From a virus: a stretch of 26,676 nucleotides of DNA. The stretch lies in the IMG/VR virus record IMGVR_UViG_3300042924_007440, positions 1 to 26,676 of that record. One strand, given 5' to 3'. The position numbers and the translations under genes are program-made. Below are positions 2,889 to 24,484 of the stretch, one piece after another (the first letter of the stretch is position 1; each line of letters opens with the position of its first letter). The notes under the pieces were generated by a model, which saw only the letters and a program-made list of their open reading frames with translations, did not search any database and was not told the DNA's origin.

Positions 2889-2898
2889 ACCGTTGGCG
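2889..2898 (-). promoter_or_regulatory. Start-linked motif CGCCAACGGT, portal gene
   Basis: On the minus strand the motif reads CGCCAACGGT, followed by an 8-base spacer CGGGCCCG and the portal ATG. It lies in the 28-bp gap after the terL stop. This is the only copy with an 8-base rather than 7-base spacer. Confidence 0.7.
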
Positions 2899-2908
2899 CC
2901 CTGGGGCC

Positions 2909-4240
2909 TCACCCGCCAGCGACGAGGAGGCGGCGGGGCCGGCGGGGCCCGGACATGTAGAGCGCGTACCGCAGCGCGTCGAGCGCGTGGTCGTCCTTCT
3001 TGACCGGGCGCTCGGGGACGAGCGGGGATCCATCGCGTGCGGTCTGCCAGCGGTAGCCGCGCATCTCCCGCCAGAGCATCGGGCACGCGGCGTCGTCCAC
3101 CAGGAGCGTCCCGCGGTGGAGGTGGGCCTGGAGCTCGCGGATCCCGTCCGCCACGCTGTCGGCCCCCTTGTCGGCGAGGACGATGGGCAGGCCGCGCTCG
3201 CGTCGCTGCGTGTTAGTCGTCTGCGGGAAGTTCCGGTCGGAGTAGATGCGGGCCGGCCTCCACCGCTCGAGCAGGGGCCGGATGCGGTCCCACCACTCCG
3301 CCTCCGTCGCCGCCGGCGCGTGGGCCTCGGCGACGGCGCACCACCGCTCGCCGACGCGGGCGAGGATGACGAGCGCGCTGGGGTTCTCCGCCCCGAGGTC
3401 CTGGCCAGCGATGACCTCATCCGCGCCTTCCGGCCCGTCCGGCCACGCGAGGCCGTCGACGGCGGCGCGCAGGTGACGCGCCGGGGTGAGCTCACGGAAC
3501 ACCGCGCCGCGGAAGCTGATGAACGAGCCGCGGAGTTCCTGCTCGCCGAGGTCCGTCCCGTCGTACACCGCGCGCAGCGCCTCGACCACGACGGCGTCCA
3601 GGTGGGGGTTGTCGAAGGTGCTCGGCGGGCGCTCGGGCGGTAGGGGGCTGCCGCCGATGAACACGACCCCGGGCACGGGCGCGGCGTCGATGAAGTCGTC
3701 CCAGAGCCAGTTCTGCCCGTTCGGCGTCGTGGCGGCCACGATCCGCGCGGGCGCCCCGTCGGGGAGCGAGAGCCGGGTCGCGAAGCGCAAGTTGCTGTAC
3801 GCCTCCCGGTCCCAGAACGCGAGCTCGTCGGCGATGGCACCGTGGTAGTTGCCGCCCCGCAGGCTGTCCGGGCGCTCGGCGCTCCCGAGTCGGATGACGC
3901 TGCCGTTGGCGAAATGAATGGCCGCGTCGCCGGGGGTGCGGGTGTAGGCGGTCGCCCACTCGCCGCCGCGTAGCTGGTTCGTCAGACCGTGCGTCTCGAG
4001 GTAGGCCCGGATACCCGACGGCCCCTCGGCCAGGATGTCCCGCGCCTCGGACCAGGTGCGGCCCACGGCGCGCCAGCTGGTGCCGGGATAGGCGAGGGCG
4101 CGCGGCGTGAGCCAGCTCGTCAAGCGCCAGGTCTTGCCGAGACCGCGGCCGCCGGTGAGAAGCCACAGCGTCCAGGCGCCTGCGGGGACGACCTGGTGGG
4201 AGAGGATGGGAACGCGGACGGAGTTGTCAAGGCTTGCCAT
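2909..4240 (-). CDS. terL: Terminase large subunit (ATPase and nuclease)
   Basis: The 443-aa product has the two TerL modules. The ATPase has a Walker A GGRGLGKT (residues 30-37) and a Walker B HGAIADEL with acidic D138/E139. The RNase H-like nuclease shows candidate acidic residues in AGQDLGAEN (about 281), IYSDRN (335) and the C-terminal KKDDHALDALRYAL (about 414-427), a typical TerL ending. It pumps DNA into the prohead through the portal and cuts it. The ATG at 4240 (MASLDNSVRV) overlaps the end of terS by 14 bp. One of the six 13-bp operator-like sites covers this start codon and the terS stop. Confidence 0.92.
   Translation of the reverse strand: MASLDNSVRVPILSHQVVPAGAWTLWLLTGGRGLGKTWRLTSWLTPRALAYPGTSWRAVGRTWSEARDILAEGPSGIRAYLETHGLTNQLRGGEWATAYTRTPGDAAIHFANGSVIRLGSAERPDSLRGGNYHGAIADELAFWDREAYSNLRFATRLSLPDGAPARIVAATTPNGQNWLWDDFIDAAPVPGVVFIGGSPLPPERPPSTFDNPHLDAVVVEALRAVYDGTDLGEQELRGSFISFRGAVFRELTPARHLRAAVDGLAWPDGPEGADEVIAGQDLGAENPSALVILARVGERWCAVAEAHAPAATEAEWWDRIRPLLERWRPARIYSDRNFPQTTNTQRRERGLPIVLADKGADSVADGIRELQAHLHRGTLLVDDAACPMLWREMRGYRWQTARDGSPLVPERPVKKDDHALDALRYALYMSGPRRPRRLLVAGG
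4226..4238 (-). promoter_or_regulatory. Operator/stoperator-like site, terS-terL junction
   Basis: The plus strand reads GTCAAGGCTTGCC, and the minus (sense) strand reads CAAGCCTTGACA. It is one of six copies of a near-palindrome with invariant core TGTCAAGGCTTG. It sits over the terL start and terS stop, inside transcribed DNA, where a bound repressor could block elongation. Confidence 0.65.
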
Positions 4241-4733
4241 CGGCTGGCCTCAGCTCGTGCTCCACGACCACGGCGTCGATGACCTCGGCCTCTACTACCT
4301 CGGCGATGGTCACCTGCGCGACGGCAACGACACCCGAGTGCTCGACACGTTGAACTTCAACGCCTTCGAGCTTGGCGATGTCCATCAGAGCCTGGCGCTC
4401 GAGCGCCAAGTAGCGCGCCGCTGCGGCGTCGTCCTCTCGGTCCAGGGCGTGGGTGGCGTTGCGCCGAGCGTCCTCTGCGATGCGGGTAAGCCGGACGACG
4501 GCCTCGGCGCGGTGGCGCTCGGTGCGTCCCACGCGCTCGCGGGCGATGGCGTCCAGGTGCTTGTGCCAGTGGCGCAGCACCGTCTTGCGGTCGCAGCCGA
4601 TGGCGGCGGCAACCCCGTTGACGCTATGCCCACTGAGGCGGAGCTCGATGAGCTCGTCCACCTGCTCGGGCGCCAGCCGGCGCGCGCTCAGGCGCCGATG
4701 CTCAGACGTGACAGGGGCAGGCAGGCGGTCCAC
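4227..4733 (-). CDS. terS: Terminase small subunit-like DNA-binding protein
   Basis: The GTG at 4731-4733 gives 168 aa beginning MDRLPAPVTSEHRRLS. This start is chosen because CGCCAACGGT lies exactly 7 bases upstream; a longer frame begins at 4778 within a hairpin and is disfavoured. A helix-turn-helix is visible at about residues 35-58 (SVNGVAAAIGCDRKTVLRHW), followed by a helical, Arg/Glu-rich middle and a beta-like, Val/Glu-rich tail. The architecture and the position directly upstream of terL, with a 14-bp overlap, fit a TerS that recognises the packaging site. The sequence alone does not exclude another phage DNA-binding protein. Confidence 0.75.
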   Translation of the reverse strand: MDRLPAPVTSEHRRLSARRLAPEQVDELIELRLSGHSVNGVAAAIGCDRKTVLRHWHKHLDAIARERVGRTERHRAEAVVRLTRIAEDARRNATHALDREDDAAAARYLALERQALMDIAKLEGVEVQRVEHSGVVAVAQVTIAEVVEAEVIDAVVVEHELRPADGKP

Positions 4734-4740
4734 GTCCCGG

Positions 4741-4750
4741 ACCGTTGGCG
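4741..4750 (-). promoter_or_regulatory. Start-linked motif CGCCAACGGT, terS
   Basis: The minus strand reads CGCCAACGGT, then the 7-base spacer CCGGGAC, then GTG. No separate strong Shine-Dalgarno sequence is visible. It decides the terS start at 4733. Confidence 0.75.
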
Positions 4751-4765
4751 TCCGGACACGACGAA

Positions 4766-4788
4766 GCCCCCGCCACACGGGCGGGGGC
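4766..4788 (-). terminator. Hairpin terminator between the small-gene cluster and terS
   Basis: GCCCCCGCC and GGCGGGGGC form a perfect 9-bp stem around a 5-base loop. On the minus strand it is followed by TTCGTCG, a weak T-containing tail typical of high-GC genomes. It sits 25 bp after the stop at 4813 and 16 bp before the start-linked motif of terS, so it probably insulates the packaging operon from upstream transcription. Confidence 0.6.
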
Positions 4789-4812
4789 AGGTCGGAAGTG
4801 CTTTCGGAGGCG

Positions 4813-5187
4813 TCAGCGTGAGGCGGCGACTACGCGCTGGAAGTCCTCAAGCGGGGCGACCCACCCGGCATCGGCGTCGACCAGCACTAGCTCGCCGCCG
4901 GGCTGGCCAGCGAGGATATTCCAGGTGTCACCAACCGGGCCTCGGTACGGGATGCCGATCGCATACAACGCGATTCTCAACGACGCGGCGCGCGCCGTGG
5001 CCGCGGTGTGGGCACCGTACACGGCGTCTGCGAGCCGCTCGAGGCTGGGCAAGACGTCATCATTGGGCGTGCGTGCAGTGGCGGCCCAGGCGTCCTCGAG
5101 GCGATCGAGTTCTCGCACGGCCTCGGCGTAGATCCTGGCCAGCCGGTGAAGCTCGGTGGCGGTGGTGGTGTCAGTGGTGGTGTCCAT
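4813..5187 (-). CDS. Hypothetical protein, 124 aa
   Basis: The start ATG (5185-5187) has a good ribosome binding site (AAGGAG, 7 bases upstream), so I prefer it to a longer frame beginning at 5319. The product begins with a Thr/Asp-rich MDTTTDTTTATEL, has a helical segment with heptad-like Leu/Ala spacing (about 10-70), then a compact region containing GIPYRGPVGDTWNILAG. No transmembrane segment or catalytic motif is evident. It lies between the RecT-like operon and the terminase genes and is followed by a hairpin terminator. I do not recognise the family. Confidence 0.65.
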   Translation of the reverse strand: MDTTTDTTTATELHRLARIYAEAVRELDRLEDAWAATARTPNDDVLPSLERLADAVYGAHTAATARAASLRIALYAIGIPYRGPVGDTWNILAGQPGGELVLVDADAGWVAPLEDFQRVVAASR

Positions 5188-5345
5188 CGGGGGTCTCCTT
5201 GTGCCGGGGGCCGTTCCTCCGGTCACACTTAGGACTGTGCGCCGCCGTTCGCCGCAGGCAAGTATCTGGCGGAGGTTTTCCAGCCCCCTTGTTGCCCCGC
5301 GGCGGCGGGGCCGGTTCACGGTTCGGCGATGGCGTCCATCCCCAG
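5188..5345. other. Gap with inverted repeat between 5346-5477 and 4813-5187 genes
   Basis: The gap contains GCCCCGC/GCGGGGC (5294-5300 and 5305-5311) with a 4-base loop, a possible terminator for the RecT-like operon on the minus strand. Frames crossing this gap lack supporting starts. No convincing promoter pair was found for the gene at 5187. Confidence 0.4.
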
Positions 5346-5477
5346 CTATTCCGGGGGATCGGCGCCGCCCAGGGTTGCCGGCACCGGGGCGCGGTCCATG
5401 AGCGGGGCTTCATCCTCCGCGGCAACCACGATCCACAGCAGCATCCGCACTACTCCGCGGATCTCCTCCGGCTTCAT
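5346..5477 (-). CDS. Small hypothetical protein, 43 aa
   Basis: A short frame begins at ATG 5477, overlapping the preceding stop as ATGA, and ends at TAG 5346-5348. The product begins MKPEEIRGVVRMLLWIVVAAEDE, with a short hydrophobic stretch (about residues 9-20), then a Pro/Ala/Gly-rich acidic tail. It is supported mainly by the stop-start coupling that also joins the three genes upstream. The function is unknown; the hydrophobic stretch is short for a transmembrane helix. Confidence 0.5.
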   Translation of the reverse strand: MKPEEIRGVVRMLLWIVVAAEDEAPLMDRAPVPATLGGADPPE

Positions 5478-5683
5478 GGCCATAGCTCCCGGTCCTCAAT
5501 CGCCACGAGGACGGCCCCGTGGGATGCGGCGGTGGCGTGCGCGGCGCGGATGGCTTGCCGGCGTGTGAGGGTGAATCCCTGGGCGATGAAGTTCCCGCGG
5601 GGCGGGACCATGCGCACGATCCATCCCCACTGAGCGAAACCCAGCCGGCGAACGCGGGCGGTGAATGGTGGCGGGGTGCTCAC
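5474..5683 (-). CDS. Small basic hypothetical protein, 69 aa
   Basis: The GTG at 5683 overlaps the preceding stop as GTGA and gives 69 residues beginning MSTPPPFTARVRRLG and ending VAIEDRELWP. Longer in-frame starts upstream lie inside the neighbouring gene and produce an Arg-rich shadow sequence, so they are rejected. The protein is basic with a helical segment TRRQAIRAAHATAASHG. It is the third gene of the coupled RecT-like operon. No family is recognised. Confidence 0.6.
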   Translation of the reverse strand: MSTPPPFTARVRRLGFAQWGWIVRMVPPRGNFIAQGFTLTRRQAIRAAHATAASHGAVLVAIEDRELWP

Positions 5684-6845: not shown

Positions 6846-6893
6846 TGTGTACCTCCGTGTTGGTACAGCCGGGCGGTCCGGCTCCTATTCGAT
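6846..6893 (-). promoter_or_regulatory. Leader of the RecT-like operon with two small hairpins
   Basis: Between the 74-bp repeat and the start codon, the minus strand can form AGCCGG/CCGGCT around a 5-base loop. It can also form TGTACC/GGTACA, whose right arm and loop include part of the GGAGG ribosome binding site. The second hairpin could modulate access to the start. No transcript data support this; it is read from sequence symmetry. Confidence 0.4.
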
Positions 6894-6967
6894 GGTGCGC
6901 CGGTGTTTGCGAGGCGCAACCCCTAACGCGCCCACTCACAGCCAGGTATCAGGTGGTGCCAGCCGCC
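6894..6967 (-). repeat. 74-bp repeated control element, copy A (RecT operon)
   Basis: This segment matches the reverse complement of 10216-10289 at 70 of 74 positions with no gaps. Both copies are oriented so that the same end points toward the downstream gene: leftward to the RecT-like gene here. It includes the dyad TTGCG-CCT-CGCAA (about 6907-6919) and the conserved run GCGTTAGGGG. Its distal part overlaps the last 6 codons of the gene at 6949-7344. It is most simply a duplicated promoter/operator region for two early operons. Confidence 0.75.
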
Positions 6968-7344: not shown

Positions 7345-7736
7345 GGGCCCACCTCCCGAAGCTCGATGACGAGCGCGGCGCCGTCGCCGTAGACCGGCGC
7401 GAGGAACACGATCCGGGGGAACCGCCCGGGCCCGTCGTCGGGGGTGCCGTGCGGCGTCAGCCACCCGGCCCCATCGCAGACGCCGTCGACAGCCGCCTTC
7501 ACCGCCGGGACGCAGGCGGCGGTGTCCTGCTGGCCGCGGCGGTCGGGGAGGTGCGGTCTTGCCACCACCTCGACGGGACCGGCGTCGGCGGGCAGGTCCG
7601 CGGCCTTGGCGAGCTCGGCGAAGGCGGTCCGCCACCGGCGCGTCCGCGCGGCGTTCGCGGTCCAGTGCCGTGCGCTCCGCAGGGCGTTGTAGGTCCACGG
7701 TCGTTCTTCGTGCCGTAGGACCCATGTCCGTGCCAT
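7341..7736 (-). CDS. rusA-like: RusA-like Holliday junction resolvase
   Basis: The ATG at 7736 is chosen because CGCCAACGGT lies exactly 7 bases upstream; a frame extending to 7793 is disfavoured. The 131-aa length fits RusA (about 120 aa). A conserved-looking block with D71 in RGQQDTAACVPAVKAAVDGV, lysine K80, D84 and the later DD (about 100-101) matches the pattern of acidic residues and lysine used by RusA to cut branched DNA. In phages such enzymes resolve recombination or replication intermediates before packaging. Identity rests on this pattern, and overall similarity is weak by eye. Confidence 0.65.
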   Translation of the reverse strand: MARTWVLRHEERPWTYNALRSARHWTANAARTRRWRTAFAELAKAADLPADAGPVEVVARPHLPDRRGQQDTAACVPAVKAAVDGVCDGAGWLTPHGTPDDGPGRFPRIVFLAPVYGDGAALVIELREVGP

Positions 7737-7743
7737 AGCCCGG

Positions 7744-7753
7744 ACCGTTGGCG
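7744..7753 (-). promoter_or_regulatory. Start-linked motif CGCCAACGGT, RusA-like gene
   Basis: The minus strand reads CGCCAACGGT, then the 7-base spacer CCGGGCT, then ATG. The spacer has no canonical ribosome binding site. Confidence 0.75.
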
Positions 7754-7792
7754 GGTGCCGTGGGGCGGTGTTCGGGCTCGTGTGGGTAGCCA

Positions 7793-7833: not shown

Positions 7834-7845
7834 TTTGCTACATGC

Positions 7846-7871: not shown

Positions 7872-8063
7872 TAGACAGCTACACGAGCACGATGGCGTGC
7901 GTTTGTTGAGCCTTCCGAGGAGCCGTGGCGCTCACGGCCTACCAGGGCACTGCACGATAGGTCCGCAGACGCACGCGGGGGAGTGCGGTGGGTCGTTGGG
8001 GCCGGGCGGTGGTTGCGTCCGTGAATAGTGCGAACGTGTGGTGCGGGGAGTTCCGTGGTCGTT

Positions 8064-8076
8064 GGCAAGCCTTGAC
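8064..8076 (+). promoter_or_regulatory. Operator-like site 1 with embedded TTGACA
   Basis: The plus strand reads GGCAAGCCTTGAC, followed by A, so the site contains a perfect -35 hexamer TTGACA (8072-8077). A candidate but poor -10 (TGTGAC, 8095-8100) lies 17 bases downstream. In L5-like phages the repressor site overlaps the -35 of the early promoter in the same way. The rightward orientation would serve the methyltransferase gene. Confidence 0.65.
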
Positions 8077-8097
8077 ACGGACCTGCACGCCCGTTGT

Positions 8098-8110
8098 GAC
8101 AAGCCTTGAC
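8098..8110 (+). promoter_or_regulatory. Operator-like site 2 with embedded TTGACA
   Basis: The plus strand reads GACAAGCCTTGAC followed by A, with TTGACA at 8106-8111. Its centre is 34 bp from that of site 1, in the same orientation. A clear -10 at 16-18 bases is not seen, so this copy may act as an operator for the first promoter. Confidence 0.6.
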
Positions 8111-8155
8111 ACGAACCGCCCCGCCCCGCTGGGGCATCATCCCAGGGCCGGCACC

Positions 8156-8165
8156 CGCCAACGGT
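8156..8165 (+). promoter_or_regulatory. Start-linked motif CGCCAACGGT, methyltransferase 1
   Basis: CGCCAACGGT is followed by the 7-base spacer GCGCGGT and the ATG at 8173. It rules out the GTG at 8164, which lies inside the motif. Confidence 0.75.
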
Positions 8166-8172
8166 GCGCGGT

Positions 8173-9618
8173 ATGGCCGCGCCCATCACCCCACGGTTCA
8201 TTTTGGGCAACGCCCTTGCCCTGCCCCTGCCCGACGCCTCGGTCGACCTGGTGGTGACCAGCCCGCCGTACTTCGGCCTGCGTGACTACAACGCCGGCGA
8301 GCACGAGGTCGGTTCCGAGGCCACACCCGCCGAGTTCCTCGACGCGCTGGTCGCCGCCACCCGTGAAATGGTCCGGGTGCTCCGCCCGTCCGGGTCTATC
8401 TGGGTGAACCTCGGCGACAAGTACTCCCAGCGCACCCAGACCCGCCGGTCGTCGCACCAGCCCGGTATGCACGAGGGCAAGTTCGAGGAGTTCGAGGAAA
8501 CCTGGGCCCAGCGTGCCGCGGCGGGTGCCGTGCGAATGCCGCACCAAAACGTCCCGGCTCCCGGCGTGACGCACATCCCAGAGAAGTCGTTGATGGGCCT
8601 GCCGTGGCGCTACGCCATCCGGTGCGTCGATGAGCTGGGCCTGGTGCTGCGTGAGGAAGTCATCTGGGCCAAGCCCAACGGCCTGCCCGAGAGCGTGAAG
8701 GACCGGTGCGCCCGCAAGCACGAGCAGTGGTTCCACTTCACCGTGTCGCCCCGCTACTTCGCTGCGATGGACCCGATCCGGGAGCCGCACCAAGGCCGAG
8801 ACCCCGGCGGCGGTGGCAAGACCGCCGCGGCCAGAGATGTCGCGCCGGGCGGCAAGGACACCAACCTTGGCAACGCCTCGCCCAACCCCCTCGGCAAGCT
8901 GCCCGGCTCAGTGTGGACTGTGGCGACCGAGCCGCTGCCGGCGAAGGCCATCCGTGAGGCCGGGCACACCGCCCACTTCGCCGCGTTCCCGTCTGAATGG
9001 CCGCGGCGCATCGTGCTGGGCTGGGCGCCAACGCACGGCATCTGCACCGTGTGCGGCGAAGGGCTGCGGCCTGTGGCTGGTAGCTGGTGCGCCTGCAACG
9101 AGCCCATTGCCTCACCTACTGGAAGCCGCACCGCCGAGGATCCCTCAAAGCGAACCGGGCGTGCCGGCTTCAACAGGCCGCGCGGCGAAGGCGAAGGCGT
9201 TCGGGTGGTCACCCGCTGGGAGCAGCGCCACGAGGCCGAGCAGCTGCGCACCAGCCAGCACCGCGCCGCGATGGAGGCCGAGGCCGGGCCTGCGTTCGGT
9301 CACTACATCCGCACCGACCGCTCTGGGGCGCGTCCGATCCCCGAGGCGCTGCGCACCCAGTGGCAGGAGCGCGGCTGGCTCACCCCGGCGCCGCCGTTCG
9401 TGCAGCCGGCGACGCGCCGTGCCGTTGTGCTCGATCCCTTCTCAGGCACCGGAACCACCGCCATCGTCGCCTCGGCGCTCGGGTGCCAGGGCATCGGTGT
9501 GGAACTGAACCCCGAGTACATCCGGCTGGCCCAGTGGCGGCACGAGGACGGCCGCTTGGCCCGCAAGGTGAGGGAGCGGACTGCGCAGGGTCACTCGCCC
9601 CAGTCGCGCATCCCGTAG
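8173..9618 (+). CDS. DNA methyltransferase (N4-cytosine or N6-adenine type)
   Basis: The 481-aa product begins MAAPITPRFILGN. The catalytic motif TSPPYFGLRDY (about 29-39) comes first and the AdoMet-binding motif DPFSGTGTTAIVASALG (about 420-436) last, the beta-class order. SPPY favours N4-cytosine methylation but does not prove it. A Cys cluster (CTVCGE...WCAC, about residues 291-309) suggests a zinc-binding insertion in the target-recognition part. No cognate restriction enzyme is adjacent, so it is probably a solitary phage methylase, for example for protection from host restriction. It overlaps the convergent gene at its 3' end by 28 bp. Two operators in its leader suggest repressor control. 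Confidence 0.85.
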   Translation: MAAPITPRFILGNALALPLPDASVDLVVTSPPYFGLRDYNAGEHEVGSEATPAEFLDALVAATREMVRVLRPSGSIWVNLGDKYSQRTQTRRSSHQPGMHEGKFEEFEETWAQRAAAGAVRMPHQNVPAPGVTHIPEKSLMGLPWRYAIRCVDELGLVLREEVIWAKPNGLPESVKDRCARKHEQWFHFTVSPRYFAAMDPIREPHQGRDPGGGGKTAAARDVAPGGKDTNLGNASPNPLGKLPGSVWTVATEPLPAKAIREAGHTAHFAAFPSEWPRRIVLGWAPTHGICTVCGEGLRPVAGSWCACNEPIASPTGSRTAEDPSKRTGRAGFNRPRGEGEGVRVVTRWEQRHEAEQLRTSQHRAAMEAEAGPAFGHYIRTDRSGARPIPEALRTQWQERGWLTPAPPFVQPATRRAVVLDPFSGTGTTAIVASALGCQGIGVELNPEYIRLAQWRHEDGRLARKVRERTAQGHSPQSRIP

Positions 9619-10209: not shown

Positions 10210-10219
10210 ACCGTTGGCG
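10210..10219 (-). promoter_or_regulatory. Start-linked motif CGCCAACGGT, papain-like gene
   Basis: The minus strand reads CGCCAACGGT, then the 7-base spacer CGGGCCT, then ATG. It overlaps the edge of copy B of the 74-bp element by 4 bases. Confidence 0.75.
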
Positions 10220-10289
10220 GCTGGCACCACCTGATAGCCGGCTGTGAGTAGGTGCGTTAGGGGTTGCGCCTCGCAAACACCGGCGCACC
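10216..10289 (+). repeat. 74-bp repeated control element, copy B (replication operon)
   Basis: This is the inverted partner of 6894-6967 (70/74 identical, 4 substitutions, no gaps). It reads rightward into the replication operon, as copy A reads leftward into the RecT operon. It contains the dyad TTGCG-CCT-CGCAA (about 10264-10276) within GGGGTTGCG and CGCAAACACC arms, a likely protein-binding site. No consensus -35/-10 is clear to the eye, so the promoter may need a regulator or an alternative sigma factor. Confidence 0.75.
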
Positions 10290-10291
10290 TT

Positions 10292-10330
10292 CTCACTTGC
10301 CGGCGGAGAACCTCCCCGCCGGCAAGTGAG
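10292..10330 (+). promoter_or_regulatory. Strong 15-bp hairpin in the replication operon leader
   Basis: CTCACTTGCCGGCGG (10292-10306) and its exact complement (10316-10330) form a perfect 15-bp stem around the 9-base loop AGAACCTCC. The loop CCTCC is complementary to the ribosome binding site GGAGG (10334-10338) just beyond the stem. There is no U-tract, so it is unlikely to be a simple terminator. A translation-control or RNA-protection role is plausible. Confidence 0.65.
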
Positions 10331-10344: not shown

Positions 10345-10608
10345 GTGAGCACTCAGACCCAGACCCCACGGCGGCGCGCGGAGAGCTTGTATGCGCTGCT
10401 CAGCCACATGCCACCGGATGCGGTGGCCACGATGACGAACCAAGACATCGCCGATGCGCTCGGTACGAGCCCGCGGCACGCGTCGCGGATGCTGGCGCAG
10501 CTCGTCGAGGCGGGCCTCATCCGCCTGACCTACGGCCCGCCGAACAGGTGGGGCATCGGCTCCGCGCCGTCGGGCCGCACCATCGAGGTCGTGGAGGTGC
10601 CTCGATGA
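10345..10608 (+). CDS. Winged helix-turn-helix DNA-binding protein, 87 aa
   Basis: The GTG start at 10345 has a strong ribosome binding site (GGAGG, 6 bases upstream). A helix-turn-helix is visible in MTNQDIADALGTSPRHASRM (about residues 30-49), followed by a second helix (LAQLVEAGLI) and a wing with RLTYGPPNRWGIG. It is the first gene of the replication operon and is coupled to the next by ATGA. It could be an early transcription regulator, a replication origin-binding factor or the phage repressor. Its size is small for an L5-type repressor, and binding to the 13-bp operator is not shown. Confidence 0.7.
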   Translation: MSTQTQTPRRRAESLYALLSHMPPDAVATMTNQDIADALGTSPRHASRMLAQLVEAGLIRLTYGPPNRWGIGSAPSGRTIEVVEVPR

Positions 10609-11405: not shown

Positions 11406-12541
11406 ACGCCAACGACGCCCTCTACCACCTCGAGCCGCCCGTCGAGGAAGAGTACATCGGCGAGTGGGACCCCGACCAGGCGTCCGACCCCGCGCCAGCT
11501 GGCCCGCGCCAGCCGCACGTCGCCCAGCCGGGCGAGGTGCCCGGGTTCCAGGGCTGCCGGGCCTCGACGCTCGCCGGGCTCGTGGAGCCGATGGCCGAGC
11601 GCCTCGAGATCGCCGCCCGCTACCCGGGCGCCGGTATCGAGACCACGGGTCTCGGACCGCTCGACGAGGTGGTGCGCGTCACGCCGGGCGATGTGGTCGT
11701 TATCGGCGGGCGGGAGGGCGCGGGGAAGTCCGCGCTCGCCCTCCAGGTCGCGCGCTGGATGGCTGGCCGCGGGCCCGTGCTCTATGTGCTGACGGAAATG
11801 ACGCTCGAGAGCGTCGCCGAGCGTCTCGTCGCGCAGGCCGCGCACATCGACCTCTGGAAACTCCAGCGGTCGCCGACCGTCGAGCAGCGCCGCCAGGCGC
11901 GGGAGGCGATGGTGTGGCTCGCCGAGCACGCGGACCTCACGATCGTCGAGCCGACGGGCGAGCCGTGGACCGTCCTCCGGAAGCGGATCAACGCCTGGGC
12001 CGCGGCCCACCGCGCCGAGGGTAGGCACCCGCGCGCGGTGTTCATCGACAACTTGTGGGGCCTCTCGCACGGCTCCCGCGTCGACGGCGACAGCGCCCAG
12101 GTGTCGCGGAGGCTCGGCGGCATCGTGTCGGAACTGACGCACCTCGCCAAGCCCGGCGAGGTGGATGCGCCGGTGTTCCTCGTCCACCACCTGAACCGGG
12201 GCGCCGCCCCCGGCGCCCCCGGCGGGCGTCCCGAAACCGCCAATCTCGGCGGGTCCGACCACATCGGCTACTGGGCCTCGTCGGTCTGGCTCCTCGCCAA
12301 GAACCGGGACGCGACCGAGGCCACCCACACCCTCACGGTGAGCAAGAACCGGACAGGCCGCAACGACGTGGACATCCCCGTCGAGTTCCACGGTTCGCAG
12401 ATGCGCTTTGTCGCCGCCGGGCCGGGCGAGGTCACACCACGCCCGTTCGAGGTCCCCGAGGCACCCGACGCCGCCGCGGAAAACGCAGTCCGGACCCTTC
12501 GTTCGAAATTCGCACAAGCACAGGAGAGGAGCAGTGAGTGA
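11402..12541 (+). CDS. DnaB-like replicative helicase (RecA-fold ATPase)
   Basis: The 379-aa product starts at an ATGA overlap (11402). An N-terminal Pro-rich segment of about 80 residues precedes a RecA-fold core. Visible motifs are the Walker A GREGAGKS (about residues 102-109), LYVLTEMTLESVAERL (about 127-142), a Walker B AVFIDNLWGL (about 213-222), FLVHHLNRG (about 259-267) and KNRTGRNDVDIPVEF near the C-terminus (about 315-329), matching the DnaB/KaiC pattern. It would unwind the phage replication fork. It lacks the canonical DnaB N-terminal domain, so it is shorter than bacterial DnaB. Confidence 0.82.
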   Translation: MNANDALYHLEPPVEEEYIGEWDPDQASDPAPAGPRQPHVAQPGEVPGFQGCRASTLAGLVEPMAERLEIAARYPGAGIETTGLGPLDEVVRVTPGDVVVIGGREGAGKSALALQVARWMAGRGPVLYVLTEMTLESVAERLVAQAAHIDLWKLQRSPTVEQRRQAREAMVWLAEHADLTIVEPTGEPWTVLRKRINAWAAAHRAEGRHPRAVFIDNLWGLSHGSRVDGDSAQVSRRLGGIVSELTHLAKPGEVDAPVFLVHHLNRGAAPGAPGGRPETANLGGSDHIGYWASSVWLLAKNRDATEATHTLTVSKNRTGRNDVDIPVEFHGSQMRFVAAGPGEVTPRPFEVPEAPDAAAENAVRTLRSKFAQAQERSSE

Positions 12542-13379
12542 TTATCGACCCCGCCGAACCGCCGGCTACCGGGAGAGCGGAGACGATGCCGCCCTCTGGG
12601 CTGCCTACTGGGCAGCTCCCGACCCCGACCGCCCCAAGGCCGCCGCCGCCATCGTCGCCCACCACGCCGCAGGATTGCGGGCCGTGGCGCGGGATATCTC
12701 CTTCCGTGGCTTCACCACCGAGGATCGGGAGGACCTGGCGCAGGAGGTGGCCGCCGTCGCGCTCGAGCGTGTGGTGTCCTGGGATCCCGCGGGCGGCGCT
12801 TCATTCCTGACGTGGGTCCGCCGCGGCTGTCAGGAGCTCCCGTGGATGGTCCAGGGCGAACGGTGCGCCATCCGAGTGGGCCGCCAGACGGCCCGCCTCC
12901 GCTCGCTCGTGCGCGGCGAGGGCGACCGCCGCGGTCGCGCGCTCACACCGGAGGAGGCACAGAGCTACCTCGCCACCCGCGGCAAGCGCGTCGGGCTCGC
13001 GCAGGCATCCCGCCTCGTCGCGCACCGCGAGCCGGCGCAGCTGGACGCGCCGGGCGAGGACGGCGGACGCCGCATCGACCCCGCGGACCCCGCGGTCGAC
13101 GTCGAGCGCGAGGCGCTGCCGACGCGGGCCGTCGAGCTCCTCGACGCCGCGGGCCTGACGCCCGTCCAGCGGCGGGTCGTCGAGCTCCGCATCCTCGCCG
13201 ACCCCCCGCTGACCGTCGCCGAGGTCGCCGAGGTCATCGGCGTTGAGGAGCTGGCCGAGCTGCTGCCACTGGGCGGTCCCCACGAGCCCAGCGCACTCCG
13301 CCGGGCGTGCGAGCGTGTGGCCGAGGCCGAGGCCGGGGCGCTGGCCCGCCTCCGGGAGGCGGCGGAGCGCCTGCGATGA
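12534..13379 (+). CDS. Sigma-70-like RNA polymerase sigma factor
   Basis: The GTG at 12534 has a good ribosome binding site (AGGAGAGGAGCA). The 281-aa protein has sigma-like order. Region 2 is at about 38-105 (DLAQEVAAVALERVVSWDP, then FLTWVRRGCQELPWMVQ), a basic 2.4/3-like part at about 108-125 (ERCAIRVGRQTARLRS) and an acidic linker. Region 4 starts with GLTPVQRRVVELRIL (about 207-221). In region 4 the helix-turn-helix contains about 17 extra residues (ELAELLPLGGPHEPSA) before RACERVAEAEAGALARLR. It could redirect host polymerase to phage promoters. A more distant use of the fold, as in some phage DNA-binding proteins, is possible. Confidence 0.7.
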   Translation: MSDYRPRRTAGYRESGDDAALWAAYWAAPDPDRPKAAAAIVAHHAAGLRAVARDISFRGFTTEDREDLAQEVAAVALERVVSWDPAGGASFLTWVRRGCQELPWMVQGERCAIRVGRQTARLRSLVRGEGDRRGRALTPEEAQSYLATRGKRVGLAQASRLVAHREPAQLDAPGEDGGRRIDPADPAVDVEREALPTRAVELLDAAGLTPVQRRVVELRILADPPLTVAEVAEVIGVEELAELLPLGGPHEPSALRRACERVAEAEAGALARLREAAERLR

Positions 13380-13652: not shown

Positions 13653-13662
13653 CGCCAACGGT
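13653..13662 (+). promoter_or_regulatory. Start-linked motif CGCCAACGGT, methyltransferase 2
   Basis: CGCCAACGGT, then the 7-base spacer GCCGCGG, then GTG at 13670. The motif follows the preceding stop by four bases and shows that the GTG at 13661, inside the motif, is not the start. Confidence 0.75.
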
Positions 13663-15071: not shown

Positions 15072-15081
15072 CGCCAACAGT
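15072..15081 (+). promoter_or_regulatory. Variant start-linked motif CGCCAACAGT, 58-aa gene
   Basis: CGCCAACAGT differs from the consensus at one base, with the usual 7-base spacer (CGGGGGT) before ATG 15089. It lies directly after the methyltransferase stop, as other copies do. Confidence 0.65.
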
Positions 15082-15088: not shown

Positions 15089-15265
15089 ATGACACGGACA
15101 CGGCCCCGCGGCTTCGCCCTCCTCGAGCTGGCTATCGCCCTCATCATCGTCATCCTGCTCGCCGTGCTGACGGCCTCGACGCTCACTCCAGCTCTGATGG
15201 CGGCGCAGCAGACGGCGACCCGGGCGTCCTGCCCGCCGGCCCTGCCGTACTCGCCAGGCCCGTAG
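15089..15265 (+). CDS. 58-aa membrane peptide with a type IV prepilin-like N-terminus
   Basis: This short frame starts 7 bases after a start-linked motif variant, which argues that it is a real gene. The N-terminus is basic (MTRTRPRG), followed by FALLELAIALIIVILLAVLT. That matches the prepilin signature of a Gly, then a hydrophobic helix starting with F and carrying E at position 5, cleaved after the Gly by prepilin peptidase. The rest is a 30-residue Ala/Pro-rich tail with one Cys, far shorter than a real pilin. It could alternatively be a small holin/antiholin or another single-pass membrane peptide. It ends at TAG 15263-15265, touching the first integrase arm repeat. Confidence 0.5.
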   Translation: MTRTRPRGFALLELAIALIIVILLAVLTASTLTPALMAAQQTATRASCPPALPYSPGP

Positions 15266-15286
15266 TTCCTTACGAGTTCCATACGG
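15265..15286 (+). repeat. Integrase arm-type repeats, left pair
   Basis: Two tandem 11-bp units lie here: GTTCCTTACGA and GTTCCATACGG (9/11 identical to each other). The same pair, identical in all 22 bases, recurs at 15428-15449. Tandem, same-orientation short repeats on both sides of a core next to a tyrosine integrase fit arm-type binding sites. Confidence 0.7.
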
Positions 15287-15540
15287 GGGTCGGTTGTCGA
15301 CGCTCCGCGGTCGGCGGCGAGGCTCAGGAGAAGGCGTTTAGCCCAGTAATGGCCTGGCCGAGGATGAGCGTGTGGATCTCGTTCATCCCGCCGTATCCCC
15401 CATTTCTCCACGGATTTAGCGGACTTTGTTCCTTACGAGTTCCATACGGCCCTCAGATATCACGCTCCGTGGTCAACTGCGGCCCAAAAAATGGCCCGAG
15501 GTCGGTTGGCGTCAGCGTACCGGCGGGGACCGTCGTGGCT
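15266..15540. other. attP: Probable attP: arm repeats flanking a host-gene-like core
   Basis: The gap between the prepilin-like gene and xis has 11-bp repeat pairs on both sides of a 141-bp core. Read on the minus strand, 15324-15400 encodes GYGGMNEIHTLILG...TGLNAFS followed by a stop, closely resembling the extreme C-terminus of acyl-CoA dehydrogenases (where G-x-NEI followed by a hydrophobic run is typical). The frame has no start here and is not a phage gene. A phage that integrates into the 3' end of a host gene carries such a copy in its attP core to restore the gene. The core boundaries cannot be set without the host sequence. Confidence 0.6.
15428..15449 (+). repeat. Integrase arm-type repeats, right pair
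   Basis: This is an exact second copy of the tandem GTTCCTTACGA / GTTCCATACGG pair, in the same orientation as the left pair, 141 bp away. It lies upstream of the excisionase-like gene. Confidence 0.7.
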
Positions 15541-15792
15541 ATGGAAAGCAACACCGCCTCCATCACCGCCCAGGCCGACGAGGCCTGGTCCCAGCACCAG
15601 GTTGCTAAGTACTTGGGACTGACCGTCCGCCGAGTCCGAGACCTCGTGGGCACCGACGGGTTCCCGGCCCCCCGGGTGCTCGGTCCCCGCACCCTCCGGT
15701 GGAGCGCCAACGCCGTCCGGGCGTGGCTCGCCGAGGGCGACACCGTGGTCAAGGCGGCCCGGCCCGCCCGGGCGGTGGTACACCGGGTGTGA
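15541..15792 (+). CDS. xis: Excisionase-like helix-turn-helix protein, 83 aa
   Basis: The ATG at 15541 begins MESNTASITAQADEAW. The compact domain WSQHQVAKYLGLTVRRVRDL with following FPAPRVLGPRTLRWSANAVRAWLAE (about 16-68) is the MerR/AlpA-type winged helix used by small phage excisionases: a helix-turn-helix, a Pro-containing wing and a final Trp-containing helix. It overlaps the integrase start by 3 bases (TGATG). Such proteins bend attachment-site DNA to favour excision. The longer frame from 15349 runs through attP and is rejected. A regulatory role alone is also possible. Confidence 0.75.
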   Translation: MESNTASITAQADEAWSQHQVAKYLGLTVRRVRDLVGTDGFPAPRVLGPRTLRWSANAVRAWLAEGDTVVKAARPARAVVHRV

Positions 15793-17042: not shown

Positions 17043-17085
17043 GGAAGTCGGGGGACTTCCGGGATGGCCACCCCTACCGGGGTGG
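17043..17085. terminator. Bidirectional terminator between int and the lysis-side gene
   Basis: Two hairpins occur in the gap between convergent genes: GAAGTC/GACTTC around GGGG, and CCACCCC/GGGGTGG around TACC (17068-17085). The second overlaps the stop of the minus-strand gene (17074-17076) and can act in both directions. Neither has a long T-tract. Confidence 0.55.
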
Positions 17086-18027
17086 TCGTTCCGCGTTCAG
17101 GGCCGCGACGGCGCCGGCGGCGAGGACCGCGGGGTCGGCGTCGAGTAGGCGGCCAGCTAGCACCCCCCTCGCGTGTGGCGTGAGACCAGCACCCGCCTGG
17201 GCCCACACGGTGAGCCGTAGATCACCACCGCGGCGCCCGAGATGCCACGCCAGCTCCTCGCGGATCCGGTAGCTCGGCGGGATGAGATCGCCGGCGTCTA
17301 GCAACATCACCACGTCCCGAGATGAGTGCCGCTGTAGTGCAAGACCACCTCCGCGCTGCCGCATCCGGCTCAGTGCCCCGCGCGCCTCTATGCGCCCCAC
17401 GCCCTCGTCCGTTACCGCCACCTGCAGCGCGTAGTAATCGCGCCCGGGCAGGAGGTCGACGCGACCGGCTGCCAGACGGAGGATCTCATCAGAGGACGGC
17501 GCCCCCTTCGCGGGGCGCGAGTAGTCCACGGAGGGATCGGTGAGCGCCGCAAGGAGGTTCCGCGTCGAGCAGAGATCAGAGCGCCGCCACGACTCGGCGC
17601 TCCTCATCGCCTTGACGTTCACCGCCATGACCGCGGGCCGTCCCGAAACCGTCCACGCCCACACCTGGTCGGCCATCCCGCCGCCGCGGTGTGCCGTGAT
17701 GGCAAGGCCCGCCGCCGCCGGTACCGCCGCCTGACCCGCGGCGAGGATCCCGTCCGTGATTCGGCCGTCGGTGTCCTCCTCGAGCACGTCCGCTAGCGCG
17801 TGCTCGAAGTGATGCCCAAAGGAGCGATCACGCGCGCCCGTCTCATCGTGGCGTGCCGCCCGCCGCGCCGCCTCCTCACACGCCGCTCGTAGCTCGGGTG
17901 CGGTGGCCGCAGCCTCCATCAGGCGCGCGTGAAGCTCGAGCCAGCGCCCGCGTGGTCCGGTGTCAAGGCTTGACGCCGCCGGTGTGGTGAAGGGGAGCGC
18001 CAGCTGGCCGGCGCCCCCGGTTCTCAC
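17074..18027 (-). CDS. Unknown protein, possible PD-(D/E)XK-like nuclease, 317 aa
   Basis: The GTG at 18027 overlaps the endolysin stop as GTGA. A possible nuclease core is seen at about residues 70-141: E75 in FGHHFEHALADVL, D120 in GGGMADQVWAW and a strand with VNVK (N137, K139), which would be a non-standard PD-(D/E)XK signature with Asn in place of the acidic residue. The C-terminal half has no motif. An operator/stoperator-like site covers codons of about 18-22. Its lysis-cassette position is unusual for a nuclease. It could act in DNA degradation, superinfection defence or restriction, or be an unrelated tail-region protein. The nuclease call is weak. Confidence 0.55.
   Translation of the reverse strand: MRTGGAGQLALPFTTPAASSLDTGPRGRWLELHARLMEAAATAPELRAACEEAARRAARHDETGARDRSFGHHFEHALADVLEEDTDGRITDGILAAGQAAVPAAAGLAITAHRGGGMADQVWAWTVSGRPAVMAVNVKAMRSAESWRRSDLCSTRNLLAALTDPSVDYSRPAKGAPSSDEILRLAAGRVDLLPGRDYYALQVAVTDEGVGRIEARGALSRMRQRGGGLALQRHSSRDVVMLLDAGDLIPPSYRIREELAWHLGRRGGDLRLTVWAQAGAGLTPHARGVLAGRLLDADPAVLAAGAVAALNAERPPR
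17962..17974 (-). promoter_or_regulatory. Operator/stoperator-like site inside the 17074-18027 gene
   Basis: The plus strand is GTCAAGGCTTGAC, a perfect palindrome except for its central base. The sense (minus) strand reads CAAGCCTTGACA, the same orientation relative to transcription as all other copies. Confidence 0.65.
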
Positions 18028-18860: not shown

Positions 18861-19183
18861 GAAACCTCCGGACGCTGGCCCGTCAGGCGGACAAGCAGCT
18901 GGCTTAGGACCTCGATCTGCGCGCGCAGGCGCTCGACCTCGCCGGTGGCGACGGTGAGCTCGTGGCTCAGGCGCTGGATCTGTGCGGACGCCGCATCCCG
19001 CTCGCCGCGGAGCTCGTGGACCTCGGCCTCAAGGGCACCCAGGCGCGCAACGACCGCCGCCTCGACGCCCGCGGCGTCAGTGGCCTCCCCGAGCTGGCGG
19101 CGGAGCTTCTGTGTGTAGACGCCAAGCACGCTCGCCCCAGCGGTAGCGAGCGCAATCAGGGCGGCAGTCAGTGCGGGGTCCAC
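18857..19183 (-). CDS. Holin-like membrane protein with coiled coil, 108 aa
   Basis: The GTG at 19183, fixed by the start-linked motif 7 bases upstream, gives MDPALTAALIALATAGASV. The N-terminal about 25 residues form one hydrophobic segment, followed by a charged coiled coil (about 30-98: LGALEAEVHELRGERDA and LRAQIEVLSQLLVRL). It lies immediately upstream of the endolysin with ATGA overlap, the usual holin position. Single-pass proteins with cytoplasmic coiled coils can also be membrane accessory proteins. The start at 19192 lies inside the motif and is rejected. The holin role is inferred from location and topology. Confidence 0.6.
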   Translation of the reverse strand: MDPALTAALIALATAGASVLGVYTQKLRRQLGEATDAAGVEAAVVARLGALEAEVHELRGERDAASAQIQRLSHELTVATGEVERLRAQIEVLSQLLVRLTGQRPEVS

Positions 19184-19190: not shown

Positions 19191-19200
19191 ACCGTTGGCG
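19191..19200 (-). promoter_or_regulatory. Start-linked motif CGCCAACGGT, holin-like gene
   Basis: The minus strand reads CGCCAACGGT, then the 7-base spacer GGGAGCC, then GTG. The spacer also contains GGAG, the only copy with a Shine-Dalgarno-like core in this position. Confidence 0.75.
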
Positions 19201-19215
19201 CCCCTCAAGAGGCCA

Positions 19216-22200
19216 TCAAGGAAGGCGGCGGTATAGATCGGAGAGCTGGTCCCACACGTCCGGGTTGTGCCGGCCCCTGGGCGCCTGCGGCGTGTCCTCA
19301 GGACCCAGCACCTCGAGCTCGAGGTCGTCCTCGACGATGCCGCCCGGCGCTCCCGCGGTAACGGTGCGGTTGATGATGCGCGCCTCGATGCGCACGACCC
19401 CGCGGCGCGTCTCCACCTCGACGCTGATGAGATCCCCGGCGACGTAGTCGTACCACCGCCGACCGACCGGTGTACGAGCGTCGGTGAGCGCCGTCAGGCG
19501 GATGACGCGGCCCGCAAGGGAGCGCGCGGCCACAAGCTCCTCCGCCAGGTCCTCCGCGACGCCCGCGTCCGTCACGGCGCGCGCCGTCCGCTGCCCGCTC
19601 ACGCGCCCGTAGCGCGCAAGCGTCGTCGAGTCGGCTTGGGCCGCGCCGGTGACCGCGTCGCCGACGACGCGGGCGACGGTCGTAATGGTCTCCCACTCGT
19701 CCACGATGGTGAGCCGCTGCGCCTGCCCGGTGGTGATCAGGCAGCCGGCGCGGCGGTCGGTGCCGACCCACGTGTCCGCCAGGAACTCGCGGTCCGGGGT
19801 GATGCGGTACTCCGCGCCGTCGAGGCCGCGCCGGAGCTCCTCGAGCGCAGCGGACACGGTGGTCCCCACCTCGAACTCAATGCTGGGGATAGTCACGCCG
19901 GTGTTCGTCACGCCCGCGGTGTCGATGTCCAGCGCGCCGTAGGGCAGCGCTTGGGTCGCGTCCACCAGGTCGGCCATGATCTCTGTCTGCTCGTCAGCGG
20001 TGAAGGTCACGGTCGTCTCCACCGCGCGCCGCTCGAGGTAGCTGAGAAGGCCGCGGCACGAGAGGCGCCAGGACAGACCGTCCATCTCCTCCTCGTAGCT
20101 CACCAGCGGCCCGGCGAACGCCAGAACCTCGTTGGCGTAGACGTGGAGCTCGCACGTCCCGGGCGCGACGAGCTCATCTACGGCCTCGCCCTGGGCCTCG
20201 GCGCGCGCGATGAGCTGCGCCACCGGGACGCGGACCTCGGCGCTGCCCGGGCCGGTCACCGCTTCGGTGATGCGCACGGCGGTGGGGGACAGCGGCCCGA
20301 GGCTGGCGAGGGTGACCGACCCCGCCGAGCGCGTCACGCGCATCAGCTCGACGGCCACGCCCTCATCACTCACCCAGCCGGTCACCTCGGCCCACGCGCC
20401 CGCCGTCGTGCCGCTCTTGGCGCGGAGGTAGAAGCGGTAGGGGCCGGACGTCCCGGGGTCCGGCGTGTACCGCACCTCACAGGCGCCGTCGGCGAGGCCC
20501 TGATCGACTGTGGCCGTGCCCGCGGCGAGCGCGGCGGAGGTCTCGCTCCACGACCCGGACGGCGCTGCGGTGACCTCGAAGGTCAGCTCCTCGTTGTCGA
20601 CGTCCGTTGCGGTGAAGCGCTGGACGGACACGCCGCCGGGCGCAACCGTTGGCATCCGCGTCGGCGTCGGGCGAGACGGCGCGTCGTCGACCGGCGTCAC
20701 GGTGCCACCGACAAGGGTGGCGGGGGAGTAGACGGTCCCGCCGCCGTGGTCCTTCTTGACGCGCAGGTAGAAGGAGTAGGACCCGTACCAGTTGCCGTCG
20801 GGGGTGGTAGTGATGCCCACGACGAGGTCGTCCCGACCGCCCGGGTCCTCCTCGGATGCGTCCACCTGCACCAGGACGGTGCCAGTGTCCACGCCCTCCT
20901 CGTCCCAGGTCGTGCCGTCCACGCTCACCTGCCACGTGTAGGTAGAGCCGGGGTCGGTCAGGAAGTCGGGATCGGTCGTGGTGAAGGTCTCGCTGGCGAA
21001 GCTGTCTTCGGCAATGGTGGGCATGGTCGCCGGGGACGGCGCCGTCGGGATGTCCACGACGGCCTCGACTGTCATGGGGAGCCACGCCCACTCGCCCAGA
21101 CCGGAGTTCTCGGCGACGCGCACACTTACACCCGTGGACCCGTGCCAGTTAGCCGCCGCCTCGTAGCGCAGAGTCGCGGACGTCGTCCCCTGACCGGCGT
21201 GAACCGTCACGGTGCCGGCCACCGTCACGCCGTCGCCCTGGTCGTACACCGTGACCATCCCGGAGCTGTCCGGCGTGTACGGCGCTTCGTCCACGGGCGA
21301 TAGGCGCCAGGTCCAGGCGTCCTCGGTATCGGGGTCCTCGACGCTCACCTCGGCGTCCGCCGTGCCGTCCTCGAGGATCGTGGCGGGAAACGCACCCTCG
21401 ACGGGTCCCGGCTGGTCGGCCTCTCCGATCCAGTCGGTGGTGATGTCCACCGTATTTGAGTACAGGGTCCTGGAAGCGGTGGTAGCAACGGCCCGCGCGC
21501 TGAACAGGACCTCGCCGTCGAAGTCGGGATCGGGGGTGAGGTCCACGGACACGCCGCCCACCCCGTCGTTCGTCACCGTGAGCGTGCCACCCGCGGCGGC
21601 GACGGTGCCCGAGGTGCGCCACGCCTGCGTTGTGCTGTCGTAGATGGCGATGGTGAGCGAGGTGAACGGTTCGGGGTGACTGGCGTAGCCCGCGTTGGGA
21701 TCGGTAGTGGACAGTGTCGCGGTGAGTGTTCCGCCCTCGGCGACCGTCGCGGGCCAGGTGCCGACGGGATCCGTCGGCGGGACGGCCACGAGCGGATCAG
21801 GTGGGACGCCTGCCCCGCCGCTTGACGTGTTCCAGTTGCCGTCTGTGTCAAGGCTTGCCACCATCCACCGGTCGTCGGTGCTGCCGGGCGCCACCGTGTC
21901 CCCGGGCGGGTCGAAGGTGACGGCGGTAGTGCTGCCAGATGCCCGCACGATGGCCCACCCGCCACCGACCGCCGCGTAGTCCTCGCCCCACTGGGCGCCA
22001 ATAGCAACCGGGCGCTCTGCAGTACTTGTGCCGAGCCTTGCCGCAACAGCGACAGGCAAGATGCCGGACCCGTCGAACCGCAGGACAACGGCGTCCTCAC
22101 CACCTTGATGGGTGAAGCCCAGTGCCGTCGCGTCGGCCGATGTGCTGACAGGCGCGGACCAGTGACCGACCGACCCGGCAACAAACGCGGGCGGTAGTGA

Positions 22201-23631: not shown

Positions 23632-24467
23632 CAGAGGACCCACCCGGCGCGCCAGCTCACCCACACCGCCGAAGGCTCATCCCCGACGTACTCGTAGCTG
23701 ACCAGGTTGGCGCCGGGCCGGAGCCCCCAGAACCGCGACGCCGCGACCTTCTTGTTCATCCGCGGTGCGCCGTCCTCGGTGATGCTCTCGTACCCGGGTG
23801 TCATTACGACTTCGAGCGTCTCACCGGGGACGAGCGCCAGACCGGCGAGCTCGATGTTCCGGCCCGTCGTGACGTTGGTGACGGTGACGCCGGTAGTGGT
23901 GCCCGAGAGCGGTCCCGACACGGTGACGACCGGGTAGGCGGTGACGTTCCCGCCGACCGCCGCCGTCGCCGGCGTCGGGTCCGGTCCAGCGGCCACCTGG
24001 TCATCCTCGGACTCGTACGCAGCCGCGTCCGGGGCAAGGAGGGTCACGGCGAAGTCGGCGGCGTTGGCGGCAAGATTGCTCCACCGCACCGGCTCAGCGT
24101 CCGCGTGCGCGTCCCACACGAGCTCTCCGAGGCTCGGGTGATCGACGGTTACCGTGATCGGGTCCGCGCCGTGGTCGTTCACGGCGGCGACGAGCGCGGC
24201 CCGCAGCGTCCAGAACTCGGCCTCGTCGCGCCCGACGAGTGTGCCGCGTAGCGTCAGGGTTGCGGCGCCCCACCGCCCGGGCCCGACGGCTTCGCCGCGG
24301 GTGAATGGCAGCACCTCGCGCGCCAGCGCCCGCCGGGGCTCCGCCGAGAAGCCGGTGAGGAGGTAGCCGTAGGACCCCCACGACGAGCGCGTGAGGGTCC
24401 GGGCCACCGTGACGGGATCGAGGGTCCCGTCCGGCGGCGTCAGCGTGACGGAGGCGACGGGCAGCAC
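23631..24467 (-). CDS. Distal tail protein (Dit-like), 278 aa
   Basis: The GTG at 24467 is supported by the start-linked motif exactly 7 bases upstream. The product begins MLPVASVTLTPPDG. The ring-forming type N-terminal part (about 1-150) has GYLLTGFSAEPRRALAREVLPF, RWGAATLTLRGTLVGRD and FAVTLLAPDAAAYES, typical of siphovirus distal tail proteins. The rest (about 165-278) is a jelly-roll-like part with NVTTGRNIELAGLALVPGE and ends in PSAVWVSWRAGWVL. It sits between the tape measure and tail-tip genes, the usual order. It would form the hub connecting tail tube to tail tip. Confidence 0.75.
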   Translation of the reverse strand: MLPVASVTLTPPDGTLDPVTVARTLTRSSWGSYGYLLTGFSAEPRRALAREVLPFTRGEAVGPGRWGAATLTLRGTLVGRDEAEFWTLRAALVAAVNDHGADPITVTVDHPSLGELVWDAHADAEPVRWSNLAANAADFAVTLLAPDAAAYESEDDQVAAGPDPTPATAAVGGNVTAYPVVTVSGPLSGTTTGVTVTNVTTGRNIELAGLALVPGETLEVVMTPGYESITEDGAPRMNKKVAASRFWGLRPGANLVSYEYVGDEPSAVWVSWRAGWVL

Positions 24468-24474
24468 CTCCGCG

Positions 24475-24484
24475 ACCGTTGGCG
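24475..24484 (-). promoter_or_regulatory. Start-linked motif CGCCAACGGT, distal tail gene
   Basis: The minus strand reads CGCCAACGGT, then the 7-base spacer CGCGGAG, then GTG 24467. It sits in a 24-bp gap after the tape measure stop. Confidence 0.75.

Follow-up and report, generated by a model that had tools for sequence, protein, structure and literature searches.

The window analyzed here is the whole IMG/VR virus record IMGVR_UViG_3300042924_007440, one contig of 26,676 bp with 71% GC, and carries a repeated 10-mer, CGCCAACGGT, a few nucleotides (nt) upstream of many of its start codons. As judged from its sequence context, this motif is in all likelihood the core of a phage-specific promoter that gives rise to leaderless mRNAs, and not a signal for the ribosome. 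It most likely marks an expression program common to a group of uncultivated phages with their own sigma factor. The promoter would be of the extended −10 type, with AACGGT (AACNGT) as −10 hexamer and CGCC as an upstream extension replacing the −35 element. The RNA would start approximately 7 to 8 nt downstream of the motif: a start codon at this position would yield a leaderless mRNA, and a start codon further down would be served by a leader with a Shine–Dalgarno (SD) sequence. Promoters of such type are known already; new here would be phage-specific leaderless-generating promoters that are GC-rich, fused to start codons, and found in a phage that itself encodes a sigma factor. The open-licence literature yielded no report of the window motif or of this system.

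Copies of the motif in the window and in related phages

The gene content of the window is that of a tailed temperate phage: terminase, a portal protein fused to a head-morphogenesis domain, RecT, a RusA-like protein, two DNA methyltransferases, a DnaB-like helicase, integrase, endolysin, and tail genes. Exact matches to CGCCAACGGT number nine, with 0.12 expected from dinucleotide shuffles, and none of 100 shuffles reached nine. The start-adjacent sites comprise eight exact copies and one with a single mismatch and occur on both strands. All nine had been listed at the correct positions in a preliminary description, which overlooked a tenth site: an exact copy at 26226–26235 (−), 54 nt upstream of the tape-measure ATG (26171) and hence not start-adjacent.

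On the minus strand, the start-adjacent sites precede the terS GTG at 4733 (4741–4750), the portal ATG at 2880 (2889–2898), the RusA-like ATG at 7736 (7744–7753; PHROG 34), the ATG at 10202 of a gene labeled papain-like in the preliminary description (10210–10219; kept in the relative L141), the holin-like GTG at 19183 (19191–19200), and the distal tail (Dit) GTG at 24467 (24475–24484). On the plus strand, they precede the methyltransferase 1 ATG at 8173 (8156–8165) and the methyltransferase 2 GTG at 13670 (13653–13662), both PHROG 67, and the ATG at 15089 of a 58-residue open reading frame (ORF). The latter site, 15072–15081, is the mismatched one (CGCCAACAGT); its mismatch falls on position 8 of the motif, which is variable in relatives as well. 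Motif and start codon are separated by 7 nt at eight sites and by 8 nt at the portal gene, as described before. The earlier wording of a fixed 7-bp placement thus holds for most copies, but fails for the tape-measure copy and for distant copies in orthologues. Likewise, a position directly after the upstream stop codon applies to five of the nine genes (portal, methyltransferase 2, the 58-residue ORF, holin-like, and Dit) and not to the remaining four. The RusA-like, methyltransferase 1, and papain-like genes are the first genes of divergent units, and the terS motif comes after a hairpin. An SD sequence is absent at all nine motif genes—the earlier statement had been that most lack one—and present at 11 of 17 other curated starts in the window.

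In a position-free k-mer scan, CCAACGGT at gap 7 is the top-ranking 8-mer (7 of 10 copies, p = 3e-9); the 10-mer itself was found with no motif assumed beforehand. The hexamer AACGGT retains the A and T of TANNNT at its positions 2 and 6, corresponding to A at −11 and T at −7. A near-invariant 10-mer repeated on both strands could also be expected if the motif were an operator, bound by a repressor or activator of the phage and located near starts by chance. This is very improbable: the motif is not palindromic, it keeps a single orientation relative to the gene, and a separate palindromic operator-like repeat exists in the window.

The motif was followed through related IMG/VR records. Gene calls were made in-house, and the contigs are incomplete. 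Since a false gene call at 4155–5633 (+) covers and hides both terS and the ORF at 5187, these two starts were curated by hand. The record L140 is 99.99% identical to the window and adds 1,456 bp; this extension holds further copies, 7 nt from the prohead protease gene and 145 nt upstream of the major capsid gene. The relative L141 is 94 to 98% identical across most of the shared DNA. Searches with TerL gave nine more phages (TerL identity of 50–57%, GC of 60–65%), which lack the 10-mer of the window and instead carry a diverged variant, CAGCAACNGT, equally far from their starts. The two distant relatives tested first have no exact 10-mer and carry CAGCAACCGT instead, and other distant relatives carry CAGCAACGGT. 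In G011, the k-mer scan brought up GCAACGGT at gap 7 with no motif specified in advance (6 of 7 copies).

The core ACGGT peaks at gaps of 6 to 8 nt before starts in the window phage, G011, G007, G004, and G012. Sites of this kind, referred to as class A, have no −35 element and share a conserved upstream extension, C[ACG][GC]C; the conservation counts for motif positions partly reflect selection of the sites by an AC.GT pattern. Compared with shuffled motifs, class A is clearly enriched at starts in the window phage, G011, G007, and G004, and less so in G012. G010 shows no such enrichment, and one of its copies precedes an SD-led gene. A gap-7 motif returned by the k-mer scan for G012 and G008, TCGGGCGT, was dismissed as a chance occurrence within coding sequence. 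Scanning viral contigs by the motif alone gave mostly chance single copies; real occurrences were confined to two closely related contigs.

Two side observations concern neighbors of motif copies. The 58-residue ORF (15089–15265, +), downstream of the mismatched copy, has a weak prepilin-type N_methyl match (PF07963, E 0.02). Upstream of the tape-measure gene, 26168–26676 (−) features two overlapping frames resembling tail assembly chaperones with a frameshift.

Distance to the start codon and Shine–Dalgarno sequences in orthologous genes

The distance between motif and start codon differs between genes, and between orthologues of one gene. The gap of terS is 7 nt in all five phages compared (the window phage, L141, G011, G007, and G004), and an SD sequence is never present. 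The protease orthologues feature gaps of 7, 8, 7, and 7 nt and no SD sequence. Portal orthologues fall into two groups: gaps of 8 and 8 nt without SD sequence and gaps of 69, 69, and 53 nt with AGGAG. Dit has a gap of 7 nt without SD sequence in the window phage and of 18 nt with SD sequence in both G011 and G007. The major capsid gene (gaps of 145, 167, 167, 151, and 151 nt) and the major tail protein gene (37, 48, 31, 31, and 29 nt) carry an SD sequence throughout. Two of these values correct the automatic orthologue table: the capsid gap of 167 nt in G007, where no site had been listed, and the major tail protein gap of 31 nt in G004, which belongs to a copy of the form CAGCAACTGT and replaces a value of 95 that came from a loose anchor. 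In total, an SD sequence is found at 2 of 43 motif genes and at 122 of 212 other genes, in line with start codons lying approximately 7 nt past a −10 element. Because the motif is kept while its distance varies, with an SD sequence in nearly all gaps above 8 nt, it behaves as a transcription start signal.

The preliminary description had left open whether the motif acts in translation initiation or as a promoter element of leaderless genes. As a translation signal, the motif would recruit the ribosome or a phage protein to the mRNA in place of an SD sequence, comparable to what has been proposed for the start-associated sequences of Cluster K; this would fit the tight 7-nt gap and the mutual exclusion with SD sequences in the window phage, as well as the many copies within gene clusters with short intergenic gaps. 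Conserved copies 18 to 167 nt upstream of orthologous SD-led genes argue against it, and so do the absence of evident pairing with the 3′ end of 16S rRNA (pairing with the anti-SD sequence was rejected by inspection), copies directly downstream of strong hairpins, and a TTGC element held at fixed spacing even before leadered genes. A translation signal is, hence, improbable, and the promoter alternative is supported.

The hairpins were tested directly since a simple U-tract terminator scan missed these GC-rich structures. The terminator-like hairpin GCCCCCGCCCGTGTGGCGGGGGC at 4766–4788 (−) lies 15 nt upstream of the terS motif and has a 9-bp stem (−24.8 kcal/mol, z −2.9). Hairpins 10 to 25 nt upstream of the motif also occur at the L140 protease gene (−29.8 kcal/mol) and at two genes of G011, where T-rich tails follow them (−22.6 and −27.2 kcal/mol). 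Stems of at least 8 bp are found at 19% of all class A sites and at 7% of other starts, which is a modest excess. If these hairpins are terminators, transcription must restart at the motif. A related arrangement was observed in L141 at 3890–4005 (−), before methyltransferase 1: a class A site (CGCCAACAGT), a hairpin with T-rich tail (−29.5 kcal/mol), and a second class A site. This promoter–terminator–promoter cassette could make a short RNA. At the gathering threshold, no curated Rfam family matched the window.

The prohead protease genes of L140 and L141 share an identical 10-mer, with unrelated upstream DNA and spacer. Here, the accessory genes between portal and protease are swapped up to the motif, and in L141 the spacer of rusA is identical to that of methyltransferase 1. 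Together with the encoded RecT annealing protein, this could be taken to mean that the motif is a short shared sequence aiding gene exchange at starts. Such a role is the least credible of the explanations considered: it predicts neither the 7-nt gap nor the exclusion of SD sequences, the −35 partner, or the distant copies before SD-led genes, and exchange at promoters would equally follow from a need to retain the promoter.

Bipartite sites and the phage sigma factor

A second class of sites, class B, adds a −35-like element to the promoter assignment. The pattern TTGC-N18-NACNGT occurs 38 times at a spacing of 18 nt, with a mean of approximately 7 at other spacings between 8 and 31 nt, and 17 of the spacing-18 sites have an RTG codon 6 to 8 nt downstream, with approximately 1 at other spacings. 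Start-linked GACGGT or CACGGT sites have TTGC at a fixed position. Counted from TTGCNN, the spacer to NACNGT is 16 bp, which is sigma-70 promoter geometry and within the 16 to 18 bp of −35/−10 promoters; class A, lacking a −35 element, fits the extended −10 subtype only. Class B sites are found at putative leaderless starts and, in several cases, upstream of SD-led genes. In the relatives, they precede the sigma gene (7–8 nt), RecT, a methyltransferase, and a conserved gene without known function. In the window, a 317-residue protein (17074–18027, −) is conserved without PHROG or Pfam match, and its orthologues in larger relatives lie mostly behind class B sites.

In the window phage, class B would serve few genes. 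A candidate identified by a position weight matrix (PWM) trained on relatives, TTGG-N18-GACCGT at 15506–15533 (+; 12.4 bits), has a gap of 7 nt to the ATG at 15541 of a putatively leaderless helix-turn-helix (HTH)/Xis-like ORF that precedes the integrase gene. The candidate TTGC-N18-CACAGT at 5234–5261 (−) would give a 46-nt leader with AAGGAG before the ORF 5187–4813. The best PWM score in the window (15.8 bits) belongs to the candidate TTGC-N18-GACTGT at 171–198 (−), 115 nt upstream of the ATG at 55 (−), whose ORF runs on into the L140 extension. No classical TTGACA/TATAAT promoter was found between window positions 1 and 19999.

The likeliest reader of both classes would be the protein encoded at 12534–13379 (+), acting on the host core polymerase. 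It belongs to the sigma-70 family and covers regions 2, 3, and 4. Its Pfam matches, Sigma70_r2 (3.5e-5) and r4 (1e-3), both lie just under the curated cut-offs; a profile built from seven phage homologues gives matches to SigB, SigA, and RpoS chains across regions 2 to 4 (to 2.9e-7), and the top Foldseek matches of its AlphaFold model are sigma factors. A homologue is present in 8 of 11 records, the other three being fragments of 9.6 to 23 kb, and is kept in all near-complete relatives searched. Further IMG/VR scans found it only in members of this phage group, and no match was obtained among 50,697 phage records; the seven-sequence alignment was too diverged as scan query. The sigma-like factor of the preliminary description is, thus, a true family member, but its proposed role at these sites, while plausible, is correlative. 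Based on co-occurrence, which supports and does not prove the pairing, the phage sigma factor may well read class A and class B.

Alternatively, the same promoter might be read by the host RNA polymerase, either together with an activator from the phage or through an alternative sigma factor of the host. Both possibilities share the promoter itself, so that the likelihoods given to them are not mutually exclusive. In the relatives, a class B site precedes the sigma gene, which implies that class B can be read before this sigma factor builds up, and other regulators are encoded, such as a winged-HTH protein (10345–10608). The retention of the sigma homologue in all near-complete relatives, its restriction to this phage group in the scans, and the deviation of the −10 hexamer from TANNNT at the first base make host reading possible but rather unlikely.

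Several observations weigh against the leaderless-promoter interpretation and its pairing with the phage sigma factor. Class A is GC-rich and without −35 element, which is unusual for a −10 element that has to melt, and its tie to the sigma factor is one of co-occurrence only; as class B seems to drive the sigma gene in the relatives, class A could have a different reader. Confidence in the AlphaFold model is moderate (pLDDT 72, pTM 0.40). The Dit gene of G004 has a 41-nt gap without clear SD sequence. Moreover, the distant copies before the major capsid gene and before the portal genes of G011 and G007 fall within coding sequence (peptide AATV or APTV), and their conservation could in part be at the protein level. 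The tail codons of the protease gene encode APTV in the window phage, through its own 10-mer, and AATV in the other phages, through CAGCAACNGT; this codon choice tracks the promoter form of each genome.

In the most far-reaching interpretation, with about even chances for and against, a small temperate phage group would carry a full sigma factor with altered −10 specificity (A and T of TANNNT retained, first T lost, GC-rich). This factor would read two types of promoter: regulatory and recombination genes would have the one that depends on a −35 element (TTGC), and late genes the extended −10 type, with late versus early timing being predicted. Start codons would be fused to the transcription start, leaving a large part of the regulon leaderless, including genes within structural operons.

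Relation to known systems and further repeats

In Deinococcus, a TANNNT motif 6 to 7 bp before approximately one-third of ORFs was shown to be the −10 element of leaderless genes (PMC12340547). The Deinococcus–Thermus promoters, established experimentally, resemble class A in the −10-like element 6 to 7 bp from starts, the missing SD sequence, and the optional −35 element (PMC12340547). They differ in using the host housekeeping TANNNT, whereas the window phage features a phage-specific, GC-rich NACNGT with a CNSC extension, diverging between lineages. Mycobacteria have many leaderless RTG starts, with transcription starting at ATG or GTG, no SD sequence, and the −10 element directly upstream (PMC4633059); the window phage is predicted to place its transcription starts likewise, but with another hexamer and in a phage regulon in place of a host −10. 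The middle and late promoters of Thermus phage P23-45 belong to the extended −10 class and share with class A the lack of a −35 element; there, the host sigma-A RNA polymerase is discussed, and gp39 inhibits −10/−35 promoters (PMC7403470). The window phage encodes a full sigma-70-family protein, and its −10 element differs.

The late promoters of T4 phage are not known to be fused to start codons. Transcription from these simple promoters relies on gp55, a diverged sigma-70-family protein (PMC2988020), and the predicted reading of class A by the window sigma factor would be comparable. However, gp55 resembles sigma domain 2 only and needs gp33 and the sliding clamp, whereas the window protein covers regions 2 to 4.

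Cluster K phages carry a 13-bp start-associated sequence, GGGATAGGAGCCC, with an SD core, located 3 to 7 bp from starts and of unknown function; half of the copies come with paired 17-bp inverted repeats, ESAS (PMC3203893). The likeness lies in short repeats a few bp upstream of many starts within one phage cluster (PMC3203893). As already noted in the preliminary description, the sequences differ: the window motif is unlike GGGATAGGAGCCC and has no SD core, and is, hence, not a Cluster K element. For such unexplained start repeats, inspecting orthologues in which the repeat shifts away from the start cleanly separates promoter from ribosome signals. In the present case, a start-associated repeat becomes a testable promoter code, derived from uncultivated phage genomes alone, that predicts transcript starts for each gene. 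It also provides a candidate sigma/promoter pair whose sequence diverges between lineages at fixed geometry and a strong case for late genes that are putatively leaderless in a phage encoding a sigma factor.

TerL, the sigma protein, and, as a single-protein search, the tape-measure protein were used to look for a host and for cultured relatives; these searches returned no close cultured phage, no prophage, and no host.

Three further repeats were observed in the window. A 15-bp palindrome near TGTCAAGGCTTGACA occurs in six copies (4225–4239, 8063–8077, 8097–8111, 17961–17975, 21846–21860, and 26330–26344), giving 12 strand matches with 0.3 expected; some copies lie within genes, and they resemble putative operator or stoperator sites for a phage repressor. 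A 77-nt inverted repeat (94%) at 6891–6967 and 10216–10292 lies upstream of RecT (−) and of the winged-HTH and replication genes (+), holds TTGCGCCTCGCAA, and bounds a 3.2-kb segment, its similarity ending within the motif of the papain-like gene; it is probably a duplicated early promoter/operator. Finally, a 22-bp direct repeat, GTTCCTTACGAGTTCCATACGG, at 15264–15285 and 15430–15451 lies upstream of the Xis-like and integrase genes and possibly represents integrase arm sites or attP.

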